NCBI GenBank assembly: GCA_029250605.1
Contig: JAQXEZ010000014.1
Location: forward strand, 62,001-126,000
Origin: Candidatus Thalassarchaeaceae archaeon
GTDB taxonomy: Archaea; Thermoplasmatota; Poseidoniia; Poseidoniales; Thalassarchaeaceae
Direction: 5' to 3'
Length of the DNA stretch: 64,000 nucleotides
Shown here: positions 55,622 to 63,784 of the stretch, piece by piece
How the letters are laid out: each line of letters begins with the position of its first letter
Position numbering within the stretch: position 1 is the first letter of the stretch
Position numbers and translations under genes: made by a program
The notes under the pieces: model-generated
The model's database searches: none
What the model was told of the DNA's origin: nothing
The model's input: the letters and a program-made list of their open reading frames with translations, nothing else

Positions 55622-56415
55622 TCCTCCTCCTCCCTTTCTTCTCCAGCGGCTCCGAGGTAGGCCTCGATGACTGCCCTGTTCCCCTTGACCTGGTCGGGAG
55701 TGCCCTGCATGAGGACCTCTCCCTCGTTCATCACTACGATTCTGTCCACGCCTTGTCGGAGGATGAAGTCCATATTGTGCTCGATGATCAAGACCGATAT
55801 CCCGGTCTCGTCCACCATCTTCCTGAGGTTGTTGAATATCTTCATCGCAAGAGGCCCCGCCACTCCTGCTACTGGCTCGTCCAAGAGGAGGAGTTTCGGC
55901 ACGCCCATCATCGATCTCCCGATGTCTACGAGTTTGCTCTGCCCGCCGGAAAGTTCGCTAGTCAGGTTGTGTGCCATGTGAGGGACCTCGAGTTGATCGA
56001 GGGTGGAGTATGCCCTCTCGAGCCGTTCCTCCTCGTTTGGGTTCCACCACGGCAGCAAGAGTGCCCTCATCCGATCAAGGAACGACTTGCCGAATTGGTT
56101 TCGCGGAGGCACGAGATCGTTCTCTATCACGGTCATCTCGCGCCACAGGCGGGTGTGCTGGAACGTCCGGGTCAGGCCGAATTTCTGAATCTGGTCTGGC
56201 CTCATGTCTGTGACGTCCTTGCCGAAGACCTCGACGGTCCCGGCCGTCTTCTCGAGGAGACCGCTGATGCAGTTGAACGTCGTTGACTTGCCACATCCAT
56301 TGGGGCCTATCAGGCCAACGAACTCTCCCTCTTGGACATCGAAGGATACGTCGTCCACTGCTACTAGCCCTCCGAACATCTTTCGCAGCCCCTTGACTCT
56401 CAGTGCGGGATTCAT
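55618..56415 (-). CDS. livG: ABC transporter ATPase LivG-like
   Basis: LIGPNGCGKSTTFNCISGLL, LSGGQSKLVDIGRSMMGVPKLLLLDEPVAGV; overlaps livF start. Confidence 0.93.
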   Translation of the reverse strand: MNPALRVKGLRKMFGGLVAVDDVSFDVQEGEFVGLIGPNGCGKSTTFNCISGLLEKTAGTVEVFGKDVTDMRPDQIQKFGLTRTFQHTRLWREMTVIENDLVPPRNQFGKSFLDRMRALLLPWWNPNEEERLERAYSTLDQLEVPHMAHNLTSELSGGQSKLVDIGRSMMGVPKLLLLDEPVAGVAGPLAMKIFNNLRKMVDETGISVLIIEHNMDFILRQGVDRIVVMNEGEVLMQGTPDQVKGNRAVIEAYLGAAGEEREEEE

Positions 56416-59400
56416 TCGAACTCACCCCCGGTTGGCCTCTCTGGCCTGCTAGGGACCTCTGGGAGCAACCCTCGTGGGTTGTACTTCAGCGAGAATAGCA
56501 TTAGTAGGCCGACCAGTAGCAACTTCACGTATGCCATTCCAGCACCCGCGATGGACACCTCGCCCGTGATGTCGGTGGCCTCTAGTATCGACCTCTCCCC
56601 CATCACCAGGGCGGTGAACGCGAAAAGTACCGTCCCGCAGACTCCAACCTCCAAGACTGCCCTCGATCTGATTGCGTATCCGATGACGAGTATCAGGAAG
56701 AATGCCCTCGTGACCTCCCACTGGTCAGTGATAACCCAAGCGAAGAGGCTGTCGATCCGGCCTGCTGTCGTGTAGAGAGGGAGGTCGGGAGTGCTCGCTG
56801 CGACTAGGACGTTGAAGACGAATTCCATCAGGACTATGATGAACGCGCCAATGACCATGCCCCTGTTGTTGGCAGTCCCGCCTATCACGAAGGCCGCCCA
56901 TACTAGGAAGGTTGACTTTGCCGGGTTCATGAAGGGAGCCTCTATCCCTGATAGTCTCCATATCCAGATCGCCCCTGCCAAGGCTGCGATTGCGGCCCCG
57001 AGGGCGAGGGCCGTTGCCTTGTGGGTGAGGACGTCGTGGCCGTGGTGCTGTGCGACCTCCTCGTCCTCTCTGATGGCCTTCAGAATCCTGCCCCATGGGG
57101 ATTCCATGAGAGTGTCCAGGAGGAACCAGACGACCATGACTGAGACGAGTCCGAATAATGCAAGGAAGGTGAAGTACGATGCCGGCTCTCCGAGATTCAG
57201 AAGGTCGCTAACGAACATTGACGGGGAGTCGGCCATTTCGCTCTTGCAGGAGTTGATCACTCCGGCCGCAGAGGTGAGCTCCTCTCCCGGACCGTACTTC
57301 GTGCTACCGCAGAACCACCACTCGTACAGCGGCTTCGGATAGCTGAAGATACCCTGTGCGGATACGATTATACCCGTCCGTAGCAGGGGCTCGGCTTGCA
57401 TCATATACTTGAGCATCTCACCCAGGGAAATGGTGACGATTGCGAAGTAATCCGTCCTTAGCCGTGCAGTGGGATATGCCAGCCCCCATCCAATCGCTGC
57501 TGCGACCGCCAGCGCTGCGATTACCGCAGGGACCATGCTCCAGCCATATCCGTGCATCTCCTTGGGCGCGGTTAGGATTCCGACCAAGATAGCACCAATC
57601 GCGACGAAGAATATGACTCCGAAGTTCACCATCCCGGTGTAACCGGTATGGAGGTTCAACGAGAAGCACATCAGGATGAATATGCATAGGGTAGAGATTA
57701 CGTTCGAAACCTGGAACAGTTTGTCCGCCCTCCATGTCTCGGACCCTGTGATGGGAAGCCACCAGAGGAATGCAAGGAGAATCAGCAGCAGGGCCAAGAA
57801 TGCTACGTTCGACCCGACTCTTCCCTTCCTTCCATAGGGATCTGGAGAGAATCCCATACCCAGCTTCGATGACGTTTCGGCAGTCTTCCCCTTCACCCAC
57901 GCAGTGGTAATCGTTGCCTGGTCCTTGATCCAAGTCCTAGCTACGAGGATAGCATCTGAGTGCCACTTGTCAACGGGCTTAATTCTGGAACTCGCACCTT
58001 CCCAGTAGGTCGGGAGTTTTGACAAGAGGGACGTGATAACCCCCAGCAATGCCTCGACAGCATCTTTGATTTTGCCTTCCCGTGGGACTACATAGCGCAC
58101 ATCATCTAGATCCACGACACCATCCCTGTTCGCGTCGAATAAATTTGGCTCATCTCCCCTTAGTATCCTGATTCCCTCGTATATCGCGAATGCCCAAAGA
58201 AGGAGGGGCACGAGTGGCCAAATCAGATCTCCAGCATCGGAGATCAGGTTCATCGTCTGGATCTCGGTCTGCATCAGATCGAGCCATGACTCGTCCAGAG
58301 CGGATGGTGATTCCGAGAAGTAGGGGGAGTCCTCGACGAGCAGGGTGCCATCGTCCCTGCCTGTGAGGACCTCTAGGTTAGTCACGGAGTAGTCCCCAAT
58401 TGAGGTGTCTAGCTCCTCGATGCGCGAGGCTTCCTCGGCGGATGGGTCGATGATTAGTCGCAGGTGTGCCAGTTCCGCCTTCATGTCATCCAGTGGTTGG
58501 GAGCAGGTCGCCCCGCAGCCGCCGTCGGCTAGAGACTCGCTGCTGATGAATGAGGAGAACCTGTGAAAGAAGTATGCTGCTATGGCAACGAGGGAGAACG
58601 TCTGGGCCTTGTCCGATCTCCCGCCTCTCCAGTGATGCAGCCCGAGCATTCCCGTAGGCAGGAAAGCCAGGGCCGCTCTCGTGTTCCTGGTTCCATCCAT
58701 GTCTGAGTCGGCCTTCTTCCTCATCCTCTCTATCTTCCACTCCTCCCATGCATGGCCTATCCCCTGAGGCATCACCAGGAGGATCGCGATCAGGAAGGCG
58801 TAGGGCATTATGTCCTGCAAGGAGGCATAATTCGACCTATCGAGGGGGAATCCAACCCCCTGGAGGACGGGGGTGGTCACCGCTCTGACCAATCCAACGA
58901 TGAGCGAAGCGAAGATCGCACCGGGGATCGAGCCGATAGTCCCGAGGACGATCACCGCGAATGCCGGCAGCAGCAGGTTGAATGCGGTTCCCGGATTGCC
59001 GAGGACGGTCATTGCGAACACCGCACCACCGGTCCCGGAGATGCCTGCTGAGAGGAATGCACTCGTCATCTGCACCCTCTCGACATTGATCCCACTGCTG
59101 GCTGCGAGGTCCGGGTTGTCGGCTACTGCCCTCATGCGCATACCCAAGCGAGTCTTGGTGAGCAACAGGTAGAGCATTATCGCCGATGCGAAGATCGTGG
59201 TTGCTACTGCACCCTTGAAGAATACGTAGTGATTTGTCGCTTCAATTACGCATGGCATGAGTTCGTTGGTGAGTGGGTCGCGTGCGAGGTTGTCGACATC
59301 GTAGAACTCTATGGCTGGCTTGGAACCACCTGAACCGGGGTTGTCGTAACTCCAGCCCTCTGTTACAATCCTCTCGAGGATGGGTTCCCCGGTAGCCTCG

Positions 59401-60518
59401 TCGAAGAGGAGATCCCCCGTCTCTGGATCGGTGGATTGCTCGCAGTTGTTGTGAGTGTACTCCTGCGGGTTCGCATCGAACCGACCATCGGCGTCTAGGT
59501 CCTCGCCAGAACCCGGGATGACGTCGCCTATCTGCGATCCGAGGGGGACTAGCCCCTGGTCTGCATGCTGCTGCGTGTAGGTCTCGACGTCGAAGACGCC
59601 GTTGCCGTTGGCGTCCTCGCTGTCGTTGAGTGACCTGTCTCCGAGTATTAGCCTCAGTTTGTTCGTGGGAATCGTCCACTTCTGGATGCTTTGGGTGCTG
59701 ATGTCGAAGTCTGGATAGAATTGTCTCTTCTTTGAGGAGAACCTGAGGTAGAAAAGAGCCCGCAGGGCCAAGGCCACCCCTAGTGATGCGATCATCATCA
59801 CCTGCGGGGTCGCGTCCCTGAGTCTGAATCCCCGGTAGACCAGCAAGTCGGTCATCACCCCGGCAATCCCCGTTAGGATGAAGGCGGCCACGACCACTCT
59901 GAACAGCAGTGACCATACCAGGACCCCATCCTTGGGGGCATCGAACAGGGGGGAGTAGGAATCGGTCCAAGAGATGACGAACACTACGAACATCCCCACC
60001 ATGAAGAACTCAGACTGTGCGAAGTTCCCGTACCTCTGGACCTTGTAGGTCAGGGTGAGCCCCAAGGCTATGGAGAGGTATGTCGACGAGTGTGTGAGCG
60101 TGTCCCTCCCGATGGAGACGGAGTCGAAAGTGATCATTGCGGTGGAATCTAGGCCGCTGAATAGGAACTCCAGAGTGATGAGCGCGACTAGTAGGAGGAA
60201 GAGCGGCGAACCTGCCACCCCGACGCTACGCAGGAGGCTCGGTTTCGCGTCATCATAGAGTATCTTGACGTAGAAGAACCCGCATGAGATAGCTTGGAGG
60301 ACTTGGAAGAGCCAGATCAGGTCGTTTGGGAGGTTCCCCCCTAGGAAGTAGTCCAACAGGTTCAGCGTGCTGATCTGGTTGAGGAGGCCACAGAACGCAT
60401 CCGCCATCAGCAGAGTCGCTACAATCAGCCTCCTTCTGCCTCTGGTGAGTTCATCCCAATGTTCCTTCTTGAGACTCCTGAGACTTGAAATTAACTCGAT
60501 GTTCCTTCCCCCCAGCAC
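56412..60518 (-). CDS. livHM: Fused LivH-LivM permease with Ca-binding-like insertions
   Basis: LivH: GLTLTYKVQRYGNFAQSEFFMVGMF...TKTRLGMRMRAVADNPDLAASSGINVERV; LivM: CFSLNLHTGYTGMVNFGVIFFVAIGAI...RTDYFAIVTISLGEML; single 1368-aa ORF. Confidence 0.9.
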   Translation of the reverse strand: MLGGRNIELISSLRSLKKEHWDELTRGRRRLIVATLLMADAFCGLLNQISTLNLLDYFLGGNLPNDLIWLFQVLQAISCGFFYVKILYDDAKPSLLRSVGVAGSPLFLLLVALITLEFLFSGLDSTAMITFDSVSIGRDTLTHSSTYLSIALGLTLTYKVQRYGNFAQSEFFMVGMFVVFVISWTDSYSPLFDAPKDGVLVWSLLFRVVVAAFILTGIAGVMTDLLVYRGFRLRDATPQVMMIASLGVALALRALFYLRFSSKKRQFYPDFDISTQSIQKWTIPTNKLRLILGDRSLNDSEDANGNGVFDVETYTQQHADQGLVPLGSQIGDVIPGSGEDLDADGRFDANPQEYTHNNCEQSTDPETGDLLFDEATGEPILERIVTEGWSYDNPGSGGSKPAIEFYDVDNLARDPLTNELMPCVIEATNHYVFFKGAVATTIFASAIMLYLLLTKTRLGMRMRAVADNPDLAASSGINVERVQMTSAFLSAGISGTGGAVFAMTVLGNPGTAFNLLLPAFAVIVLGTIGSIPGAIFASLIVGLVRAVTTPVLQGVGFPLDRSNYASLQDIMPYAFLIAILLVMPQGIGHAWEEWKIERMRKKADSDMDGTRNTRAALAFLPTGMLGLHHWRGGRSDKAQTFSLVAIAAYFFHRFSSFISSESLADGGCGATCSQPLDDMKAELAHLRLIIDPSAEEASRIEELDTSIGDYSVTNLEVLTGRDDGTLLVEDSPYFSESPSALDESWLDLMQTEIQTMNLISDAGDLIWPLVPLLLWAFAIYEGIRILRGDEPNLFDANRDGVVDLDDVRYVVPREGKIKDAVEALLGVITSLLSKLPTYWEGASSRIKPVDKWHSDAILVARTWIKDQATITTAWVKGKTAETSSKLGMGFSPDPYGRKGRVGSNVAFLALLLILLAFLWWLPITGSETWRADKLFQVSNVISTLCIFILMCFSLNLHTGYTGMVNFGVIFFVAIGAILVGILTAPKEMHGYGWSMVPAVIAALAVAAAIGWGLAYPTARLRTDYFAIVTISLGEMLKYMMQAEPLLRTGIIVSAQGIFSYPKPLYEWWFCGSTKYGPGEELTSAAGVINSCKSEMADSPSMFVSDLLNLGEPASYFTFLALFGLVSVMVVWFLLDTLMESPWGRILKAIREDEEVAQHHGHDVLTHKATALALGAAIAALAGAIWIWRLSGIEAPFMNPAKSTFLVWAAFVIGGTANNRGMVIGAFIIVLMEFVFNVLVAASTPDLPLYTTAGRIDSLFAWVITDQWEVTRAFFLILVIGYAIRSRAVLEVGVCGTVLFAFTALVMGERSILEATDITGEVSIAGAGMAYVKLLLVGLLMLFSLKYNPRGLLPEVPSRPERPTGGEFE

Positions 60519-60565
60519 GACTGCTCCACAGATGTGGAGGTGCCGGAGTAATCATTGTTGTTGGG

Positions 60566-60599
60566 GGCACCTTAGCGGACCGAAGCCCGCCAAGGTGCC
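60566..60599 (-). promoter_or_regulatory. Intergenic 15-bp stem-loop with cUUCGg tetraloop
   Basis: Minus strand GGCACCTTGGCGGGC-TTCG-GTCCGCTAAGGTGCC; all 15 positions pair (two as G-U). Confidence 0.8.
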
Positions 60600-60625
60600 T
60601 TTACGTGTACCAATTGCCTTTCTGA

Positions 60626-63600
60626 TCAGAGATCAGTAATGCCTGTGGATCCCCAGTGCTGGTTGCAGTCGAATGACAGCGATTCAGCAGTGCCGTCGGT
60701 TGAGACTGACCCAGTGTAGGACCCGATGCAGTAACCGGATCCCGGGGTGTCACCGTTCGCTAGGAACGTGATCGTGCCTGATGCACCGTTCCATCCCGAT
60801 CCTGCCGTACCTGCAATCGCCTGAGAGGCGGTGATGCCTGGTGTGGTCAGGAAGGTGAAGGCGGAGAACGCCATCATGGTCAGAGCGTCGAACGCCTCAG
60901 CGGTGAAGATACCCGATCCGCATGGTGGCGTGGTCGCGCACAGGTAGGCGAAGGTCTGGGAGACCTCGCTTGCTGCTGCCGCTGCTGGCTTGGTTGCGAT
61001 GACGCCGTTCAGGTTGGCTGCGCTCGTGTAGTTCCCGATCGCGGTCTCTGCGATTCCGTCGGTTCCGTAGATCTGTCCAGCGAATCCAGCTGCTGCTAGC
61101 TCGCCGATGATCATGCCGCCGTCGGAGTTGTAGGACACCGTAACCACAGATGTGCAGCTGTTGTCCGAGACTGCCTGGACTACTGATTGGTAGTCCGTGG
61201 TGGTGGTCTCGTCGTAGCCGATCTGAGTGCATAGGGTGTTGCCTGCTGCCTCCCAGTTCGTCTTGAACGAGTCAGCAAGACCTGCGCCGTATGCGTTTAC
61301 CATGTGGATCAGTGCCACGCCGTCAGTCGCCTCGCCGTTCGCGGTCAGTAGGTCTGATAGTGCCAGACCCTGCCCTGCGTCGCTTGGGACGACCCTGAAG
61401 AAGTCAGGGTAAGCGGTTGCGTCGCTGAGTGCTGGAGATGTGCTCGCGTACGAGATCATTGGGATCCCTGCTGCTGAGAGGACTGCGTTAGCCCCTATCG
61501 AAGCTCCGGAGCATGCTGCTCCGGCCACTCCCCATACGCCTGCGTCGACTAGTGCCTGAGCAGAGGTAGCTGCAGTCGTTCCGTCGCAAGCTGTGTCGCC
61601 CCAGACGATCTCGAACTGGACACCGTTGCTGTATGCAATGGTGTTAGCCAGAGATAGGCCGATGCTAGCTGCTGCCTGGAATGGAACCCAGAAGTCGCCG
61701 ATTGCTGGGCTGGTTGCGTCGCCCATGAAGCCGATCTTCACAGTAGTGCCTGCGAAGACTACGTCGGCTAGTCCGCCGGTTGCCGTCCACATCCTGTCGC
61801 AGTTGAAGTACTGGCCGAAAGTTGGGACGTGGTGGAAGGTGCACACATCGTACCCTGACCCGGCAACGTCTCCGTTGGACAGGAACACGTGAGTGCCGCT
61901 TGCGCCTGCAAATCCGTCTCCGCTGCCTTCCATGTTGATGTGGTTAGCCATGTTGGCTCCATCTTCGTGGGCTGCTGCGGCGCCGATCATCATGACTGCG
62001 TCGTATGCCTCGGAGGTAAAGATGCCAGTCGAGCAGACGGAATCGGCTGCGCATGTAGCTGCGAAGTCACCGCTTCCGGAAGCTGCCCTAGGCTTGGTGT
62101 TCTGGACACCGTTGGTAACCTCGGGTGCGTTGAACGACTCGAGGGCTGCCTCTCCAGCGAATCCATCCGCCCCGAAGACCGGTAGGGCTGCGCCCAGTCC
62201 GGCCATTGTCTCGAGGATCAGTGCCGCGTCCGTGTTGTACGCGATCAGAACGACGGAATCGCAGGATCCGGCGTCGATGACGCCCTGAACGAGGCTGGAT
62301 GCATCGGTTAGGGTGGTCTCATCGTAGCCTGCCTGCGTGCATAGGGTGTTTCCTGCTGCTTCCCAGTTCGACTTGAACGAGTCAGCGAGGCCAGCACCGT
62401 AAGCGTTGACCATGTGCAGGAGAGCGGGGCTGGTTACCCCAGCTGCCGCGACCATGTCGGACATTGCCTCACCCTGGATCGCATCGCTTGGGACCACTCT
62501 GTAGAAGTGTGGGTAAGCGGTTGCGTCACTGAGTGCTGGAGATGTGCTCGCGAACGAGACCATCGGGATCCCAGCTGCTGAGAGGACTGCGTTAGCCCCT
62601 ATCGAAGCGCCGGAGCAAGCTGCTCCAGCCACTGCGACTACTCCAGAGTTAATCAGAGCCTGAGCAGAGGTACCTGCAGTGGTTCCATCGCACCCGGTGT
62701 CACCGTATACTAATTCGTAGACGATGTCGTTTCCGTTAGCGTCGTCGTGGCCTGCTGCGTTCAGAGCCGTGATGGCTGCTGCCGTAGCGAAGTCGAAACC
62801 TGGTCCGAAGTTACCGATTGGGCCTGTAGAGTCGTACATTGCTCCGATCTTGATGACGGTTGTTGGTAGTGGTAGCGGCTCTCCATCGAACATCGGGTTA
62901 GCGGTGCCCATGTAGTGAGCTGCGATCTCGTCAGCTATCGCGTGCGCGATGTCTGCGTCGAATCCGACCACGTTGTTGTCTGCGTCATAGCTCTCGAAAG
63001 GAGCGTAGAACGGGTCCGTGCAGATCCTCAGTGCTCCGGAGTCCAGGACACCAGCGAGGTCGCTGTTTCCACTGGGCTCAGGGTACGCGGTAGCCGTGTC
63101 AGCAGTGCTGTCATCCGCAAGGGTGACTGCACCGTTGAAGGATGCTGCGTAAATCGAGTCATACTCTCCCGAGTCGACTATAGCGCTGATTGCCACGTTT
63201 AGGGCATCTAGGAGGTCGCCCGAGTCCTCGCGGACTGCGAAACCGAAGTTCTCATCGGAGAAGGTCGTCATCAGAGTTCCTTCCAAGGAGAGCACGGGTG
63301 CATCTCCCATTGCGTACATCACGTCACCGTTGTTCAGTGCTGCGATAACTGATGGGAAGTCCTCGTACCCAGATGTAGTAGCCATTGCAAGGTTCGCATC
63401 TGCGTACAGGTCAGAGGTCGTCCCGGACTGTACTCCGATGGTGACTCCGGCTGCATTCAGCTCGGAGACATCGCTGATGGATGCGGATCCGGATCCACCG
63501 ATTACACCCTGGCTACTAGTGTAGTAGGCAGTGGTGAAGTCGACGACTTCGTCACGCGCAGCGGTCTTGGTCATGGCTGAGATGATGACATCGCACATCT

Positions 63601-63784
63601 CGCCGGCATTCAGGTTGGGGATGATGGGGTCCCAAGCGGACTCCACCCATACTACGCTGACGTCGCTGGCCGCATTGTCTGCGTCCCAGTCGTCGTCCCC
63701 GCCTGCGCATCCAGCGAGACTAGCCGCTAGCATGCTCAGGGTAAGCATCATTGCTATCATTTTCTTGTTATACATAGTGTTCAC
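60626..63784 (-). CDS. Multidomain substrate-binding lipoprotein: permuted SBP_bac_3 plus two tandem LivJ-like domains
   Basis: Lipobox LAASLAGC; SBP_3 C-terminal part (41-218) precedes N-terminal part (243-292); then two LivJ-like repeats. Start may be ATG at 63775. Confidence 0.88.
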   Translation of the reverse strand: MNTMYNKKMIAMMLTLSMLAASLAGCAGGDDDWDADNAASDVSVVWVESAWDPIIPNLNAGEMCDVIISAMTKTAARDEVVDFTTAYYTSSQGVIGGSGSASISDVSELNAAGVTIGVQSGTTSDLYADANLAMATTSGYEDFPSVIAALNNGDVMYAMGDAPVLSLEGTLMTTFSDENFGFAVREDSGDLLDALNVAISAIVDSGEYDSIYAASFNGAVTLADDSTADTATAYPEPSGNSDLAGVLDSGALRICTDPFYAPFESYDADNNVVGFDADIAHAIADEIAAHYMGTANPMFDGEPLPLPTTVIKIGAMYDSTGPIGNFGPGFDFATAAAITALNAAGHDDANGNDIVYELVYGDTGCDGTTAGTSAQALINSGVVAVAGAACSGASIGANAVLSAAGIPMVSFASTSPALSDATAYPHFYRVVPSDAIQGEAMSDMVAAAGVTSPALLHMVNAYGAGLADSFKSNWEAAGNTLCTQAGYDETTLTDASSLVQGVIDAGSCDSVVLIAYNTDAALILETMAGLGAALPVFGADGFAGEAALESFNAPEVTNGVQNTKPRAASGSGDFAATCAADSVCSTGIFTSEAYDAVMMIGAAAAHEDGANMANHINMEGSGDGFAGASGTHVFLSNGDVAGSGYDVCTFHHVPTFGQYFNCDRMWTATGGLADVVFAGTTVKIGFMGDATSPAIGDFWVPFQAAASIGLSLANTIAYSNGVQFEIVWGDTACDGTTAATSAQALVDAGVWGVAGAACSGASIGANAVLSAAGIPMISYASTSPALSDATAYPDFFRVVPSDAGQGLALSDLLTANGEATDGVALIHMVNAYGAGLADSFKTNWEAAGNTLCTQIGYDETTTTDYQSVVQAVSDNSCTSVVTVSYNSDGGMIIGELAAAGFAGQIYGTDGIAETAIGNYTSAANLNGVIATKPAAAAASEVSQTFAYLCATTPPCGSGIFTAEAFDALTMMAFSAFTFLTTPGITASQAIAGTAGSGWNGASGTITFLANGDTPGSGYCIGSYTGSVSTDGTAESLSFDCNQHWGSTGITDL
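61231..61530. repeat. Coding repeat copy B (LivJ-like domain 2), near-identical to 62338..62636
   Basis: e.g. agtgctggagatgtgctcgcg[t/a]acgaga[t/c]cat[t/c]gggatccc[t/a]gctgctgagaggactgcgttagcccctatcgaag in both. Confidence 0.85.
62338..62636. repeat. Coding repeat copy A (LivJ-like domain 1), near-identical to 61231..61530
   Basis: Direct repeat, offset about 1.1 kb. Confidence 0.85.

Follow-up and report, generated by a model that had tools for sequence, protein, structure and literature searches.

A covarying hairpin with fixed flanks after a receptor gene of Candidatus Thalassarchaeaceae belongs to a class of 3' elements

The window, a stretch of 64,000 nucleotides, is derived from a 1.48-Mb genome of a Candidatus Thalassarchaeaceae archaeon assembled in 20 contigs, here called the source genome. 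A gene for a livK-type receptor lipoprotein is followed in the window by a gene for a permease of the LivH/LivM type (Table 1). The receptor is a fusion protein that combines one SBP_bac_3 domain with two ANF_receptor domains, and the permease consists of one polypeptide that contains three BPD_transp_2 stretches as well as an acidic, DxNGDG-like insertion. Between the two genes lies a hairpin, the stem of which starts 26 nt after the receptor stop codon (60626-60628) and ends 47 nt before the GTG start codon of the permease. The stem is enclosed by two conserved flanks, of which the ACGNAA core on the 5' side is common to other hairpins of the class described below.

Table 1. Features at the receptor-permease junction, in coordinates of the window
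Feature	Coordinates	Strand	Basis and remarks
Upstream gene, 1052-aa livK-type receptor lipoprotein	60626..63784	-	Pfam (SBP_bac_3 and two ANF_receptor/Peripla_BP_6); relatives
Conserved 5' flank ACGUAAA (ACGNAA core), abuts stem	60600..60606	-	No variation at A, C, G, A, A across 22 orthologues
Hairpin, 15 bp, loop UUCG	60566..60599	-	Sequence and fold; covariation in 69 distinct relatives
Conserved 3' flank CCCAACA, abuts stem	60559..60565	-	Sequence comparison; consensus C-rich, then CAA(C)
AT-rich box (about AAUGAUUA)	60545..60552	-	Conserved behind the liv hairpin of several relatives
Downstream gene, 1368-aa permease, BPD_transp_2 (LivH/LivM type)	56412..60518	-	Pfam

Read on the minus strand from 60599 to 60566, the hairpin is GGCACCUUGGCGGGC[UUCG]GUCCGCUAAGGUGCC, in which all 15 positions are paired, two of them as G-U. 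An 86-nt minus-strand piece was predicted to fold at -32 kcal/mol (z = -3.4), and none of 200 shuffled sequences folded equally well, as compared to z = -1.8 for the plus strand, on which the stem was broken. Among the 837 ORF 3' regions of the source genome with a scorable hairpin it ranked first, with a score of 37 versus 27.3 at the 99th percentile. No U-tract follows the stem in the source genome, so the U-run of an intrinsic terminator is missing. The original prediction of a perfect 15-bp minus-strand hairpin with two G-U pairs and no U-tract was exact in these respects and agreed with the folding energies, which it had named as a check together with conservation and covariation in related genomes; the distance to the lipoprotein stop codon, given as 27 nt, is corrected here to 26 nt.

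Conservation was assessed with a covariance model of the liv hairpin, which matched 81 of the 149 genomes of the same family. Nearly all of the 87 matches that were fetched are located between receptor and permease genes, and a few weak ones after other genes. In 22 orthologous junctions, drawn from the first 60 relatives, the stem has been rewritten yet kept (GGCACCUUGGCGGGC, GCAGUGCGGCGGG, GCGCUCGGCGGG, GCACCCCAGCGG, GCGCCUCGACGGGC), and the flanks are fixed as ACG(U/A/C)AAA on the 5' side and CCC(A/C)AAC on the 3' side. Across 69 distinct sequences, aligned by fitting to the covariance model, 98.3% of the cells pair and double compensatory changes were observed at 12 of the 14 pairs. The covariation score was reached by none of 500 shuffles, and pairing fell to 31-61% when the partner column was slid; a plain MAFFT alignment of the 22 junctions gave the same picture. 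Wobbles on the fixed pair columns comprise 29 G-U as compared to only 2 A-C, which supports selection at the level of the transcribed-strand RNA. We used the fixed-column count because the stem finder that underlay an earlier count, of 55 G-U versus 2 A-C, is itself biased toward G-U, and that count was set aside. Such selection had been proposed from the window alone, and this proposal withstood the comparison with related genomes.

The UUCG loop was also part of the original prediction; it is present in the window, but it was rejected as a conserved feature since the loops vary, mostly between 3 and 7 nt, and just 3 of about 82 relatives have C[UUCG]G. Five or more U in a row follow the stem in 23 of the 87 sequences: the 3' flank is replaced by CCC and seven to nine U in genus g18, and some others have five or more U. 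Membership in an Rfam family was rejected, with no match in the window and otherwise only a chance miRNA match of 19.5 bits versus a gathering threshold of 74. A REP/BIME repeat was likewise rejected, as the element has a single DNA match in the genome and class members have their flanks, not their stems, in common. The exact flank pattern, searched as a genome repeat, gave one true copy and a second match without a hairpin.

The hairpin had been treated as a single structure in the original prediction, which correctly located it and missed that it is a member of a multi-gene class with conserved flanks. Class members were found by reading the whole genome, listing the hairpins and ranking the 837 scorable ORF 3' regions by hairpin strength. 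The five strongest 3' hairpins follow the genes for the livK-type receptor, proteorhodopsin, a dppA-type receptor, an aapJ-type receptor and a 200-aa putative membrane protein. All five have an NCGNAA flank (ACGUAA, ACGAAA or UCGCAA) and a stem that begins 26-35 nt after the stop codon, and three of them belong to unrelated ABC operons (liv, dpp/opp and aap), where each is located exactly at the boundary between the receptor gene and the first gene for a permease. Genome-wide, ACGNAA with a strong stem was found at four sites, all intergenic; as a control, seven permutations of the motif, which together occur about 13,700 times, gave two sites, neither of which is intergenic. A class-search match at G000:C5:4082 has a poor hairpin and was taken as false. 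The sixth-strongest 3' hairpin (G000:C2:87028-87058, minus strand), located after a 137-aa ORF, has no ACGNAA flank and may be a different element.

The gene for the 200-aa putative membrane protein (G000:C5:134484-135086, L153) faces a convergent neighbour, and the 3' element was observed in several genera. The protein contains a GAHxLPxVTW motif and gave no Pfam match and no credible PDB match; that it is aquaporin-like is only an impression from this motif.

The same architecture, with different stems, was identified after orthologs of proteorhodopsin, DppA and AapJ in the source family (f1), and a class model recovered mostly the same genes again, including that for the 200-aa protein. The architecture consists of ACG(U/A/C)AA, a G+C-rich stem of 11-15 bp, a free loop and a C-rich flank that ends in CAA(C), and most stems begin about 13-42 nt downstream of the stop. 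In the trimmed class alignment, all ten pairs show double changes and covariation was 0.98 as compared to 0.21 in shuffled alignments; because the members were picked for having a hairpin, this figure describes rather than tests them. The search of 195 genomes of the order used stricter filters that miss weak members; all listed matches were in the source family and, provisionally, none were found in the sister family. Rhodopsin genes of the sister family often have a 3' hairpin, with ACGNAA absent. Members of the class were found in one family of the Poseidoniales (Marine Group II), and this family is most likely Ca. Thalassarchaeaceae. The ACGUAA-hairpin architecture was also observed in G016 (L299, G016:C36:144508-144560), after the gene for a large protein with DxDxDG repeats of thrombospondin-type-3-like character.

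Rhodopsin genes are followed by the element both with ribA downstream and with other downstream neighbours, and in gene order the element goes with the upstream gene. The proteorhodopsin gene of the source genome (L197, G000:C20:32917-33765) is of the sister-family type and occupies a ribA-linked site at which congeners carry a different rhodopsin. Its product shares about 70% identity with rhodopsins of the sister family versus about 31% with those of the congeners. The ACGUAA flank and stem, in turn, match the element of four congeners at 83-85% (~84%) identity and that of two more distant ones at 56-63%, while the 35 nt before the element, the 100 nt after it and the end of the coding sequence are only about 50-57% identical to those of the congeners. 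At this locus the element is hence present next to a different upstream gene. Rinke et al. (PMC6461757) describe how transferred copies have taken the place of proteorhodopsin genes ("overwrite"). It looks as if the rhodopsin gene was exchanged at the ribA site and the resident 3' element retained, an exchange that is deduced from pairwise identities rather than from a gene tree. The locus can be regarded as a natural experiment in which the element was kept and the gene apparently exchanged.

We consider it probable that the hairpin belongs to the 3'-UTR of the receptor mRNA and, as a member of the class described above, fixes and protects the end of this upstream message. Exonucleases that degrade RNA in the 3'-5' direction would be halted at the stem, so that the receptor (or rhodopsin) mRNA would keep a defined, protected 3' end and outlive the permease part. 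Either way, with a stem that stops 3'-5' decay or one that marks an end made by processing, receptor mRNA would exceed permease mRNA, and far more receptor than channel protein would be made from the abundant, end-protected messages. We infer such 3'-end protection and differential stability, and also a dedicated protein, for which ACGNAA is probably the binding or cutting signal.

In the original prediction, 3'-end protection or an effect on receptor-permease stoichiometry was held to be more likely than termination. This explanation is also the best supported one here, since the place of the element after the upstream gene is kept at several loci whose downstream neighbours differ, and since published lists of top-expressed genes name the livK and aapJ receptors. 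According to published metatranscriptomes, livK, aapJ and proteorhodopsin belong to the most highly transcribed genes of Thalassarchaeaceae, and full transporters are encoded beside the receptors; the co-located permeases are not named in the text on top transcripts (PMC9723583). Differential decay serves to stabilise the binding-protein gene in five ABC operons of E. coli, in the case of malE by means of an intergenic 3' hairpin (PMC5927463). As at malE-malF, a stable hairpin is found here downstream of the stop codon of the upstream gene, and judging by the published lists this gene may also be the more expressed one.

More tentatively, the class may represent a dedicated archaeal 3'-end system, loosely akin to that of the histone stem-loop, in which an RNA-binding protein or nuclease of the Thalassarchaeaceae would recognise ACGNAA, stem and CAA on a small regulon of exported or membrane proteins (ABC receptors, rhodopsin and the 200-aa protein) and would form, protect or localise the messages.

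The terminator-like U-runs after the stem in 23 of the 87 sequences, with CCC and seven to nine U in genus g18 or five or more U elsewhere, count against a protective element. They are the basis of the main rival, in which the hairpin is a transcription terminator or attenuator, perhaps a partial one, between the receptor and the permease, where the polymerase pauses and leaves and a fraction passes. Since U-tracts follow the stem in related genera, and the form in g18 has the shape of a classic intrinsic terminator, the 3' ends in this genus and in other carriers of U-runs may be made by termination; the hairpins after the genes for rhodopsin and the 200-aa protein can also sit at the ends of transcription units. 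We nevertheless regard termination as the less likely explanation. The livK member of the source genome has no U-tract, mapped archaeal terminators are U-tracts for which no hairpin is required (PMC8716108), and termination leaves the invariant ACGNAA flank on the 5' side of the stem unexplained.

It is also conceivable, though improbable, that a separate receptor transcript ends at the element and that the permease is transcribed from its own promoter directly after it. The box AAUGAUUA, which lies about 30 nt ahead of the permease start and is kept in several relatives, is a possible candidate for a weak TATA box of the permease, and the average A+T content of the genome rises between -33 and -24 relative to ATG start codons. 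Such a promoter could produce two separate transcripts and would thereby count against the protective reading. However, the box is weak as compared to the TATA-like boxes of the livK, rhodopsin and 200-aa protein genes, there is no obvious box at the aapJ-aapQ junction, and an EM motif search yielded a start-codon-proximal motif rather than a TATA-like one.

A DNA-level site (an operator, a recombination site or a mobile element) with an incidental RNA hairpin is disfavoured as very improbable: covarying conserved inverted repeats can also be DNA sites and the rhodopsin element was retained beside a gene of another clade, but the strand asymmetry of the wobbles, the variable loop length, the asymmetric flanks, the sense-strand placement after stop codons and the stems that differ wholly between copies, unlike those of a mobile repeat, all speak against it.

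If the hairpin is a protective 3'-UTR element, it would by analogy work like the malE-malF stabiliser. It resembles the malE-malF hairpin and the other decay-regulated ABC operons of E. coli (PMC5927463) in that a stable hairpin is placed between binding-protein and permease genes, and at malE-malF in that the binding protein is needed in excess. Unlike malE-malF, the element is archaeal, is not a REP repeat, has invariant ACGNAA and CAA flanks, is also found on the genes for rhodopsin and the 200-aa putative membrane protein, and has a stem that is rewritten from gene to gene. The 3' stem-loop of metazoan histone mRNAs is likewise short and located in the 3'-UTR, has conserved single-stranded flanks and serves a set of highly expressed genes. 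The two are not homologous, and the stem sequence is conserved in the histone stem-loop, as compared to only the flanks in the element. The intercistronic stem-loop of the puf operon in Rhodobacter capsulatus provides segmental stabilisation of an upstream membrane/photosystem message and is not known to have a shared sequence tag. The element is similar to this decay terminator (cited in PMC5927463) with regard to such an upstream message, but occurs in another domain of life. Like the archaeal U-tract terminators recognised by aCPSF1, it is an archaeal 3'-end signal, and some stems in relatives carry U-runs; those terminators need a U-tract and no hairpin, whereas in the element the hairpin is constant and the U-tract is absent in the source genome (PMC8716108).

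Marine Group II comprises abundant archaea that have not been cultivated. Our literature search yielded no paper on an element of this kind in these archaea, and in the literature found neither receptor excess over channel from one operon nor abundant rhodopsin messages was addressed for them. In our best reading, the hairpin is a malE-malF-like element for 3'-end stabilisation or processing that bears a sequence tag specific to its lineage. Being compact and having fixed flanks at five genes, it provides a testable rule for post-transcriptional control in Marine Group II archaea.
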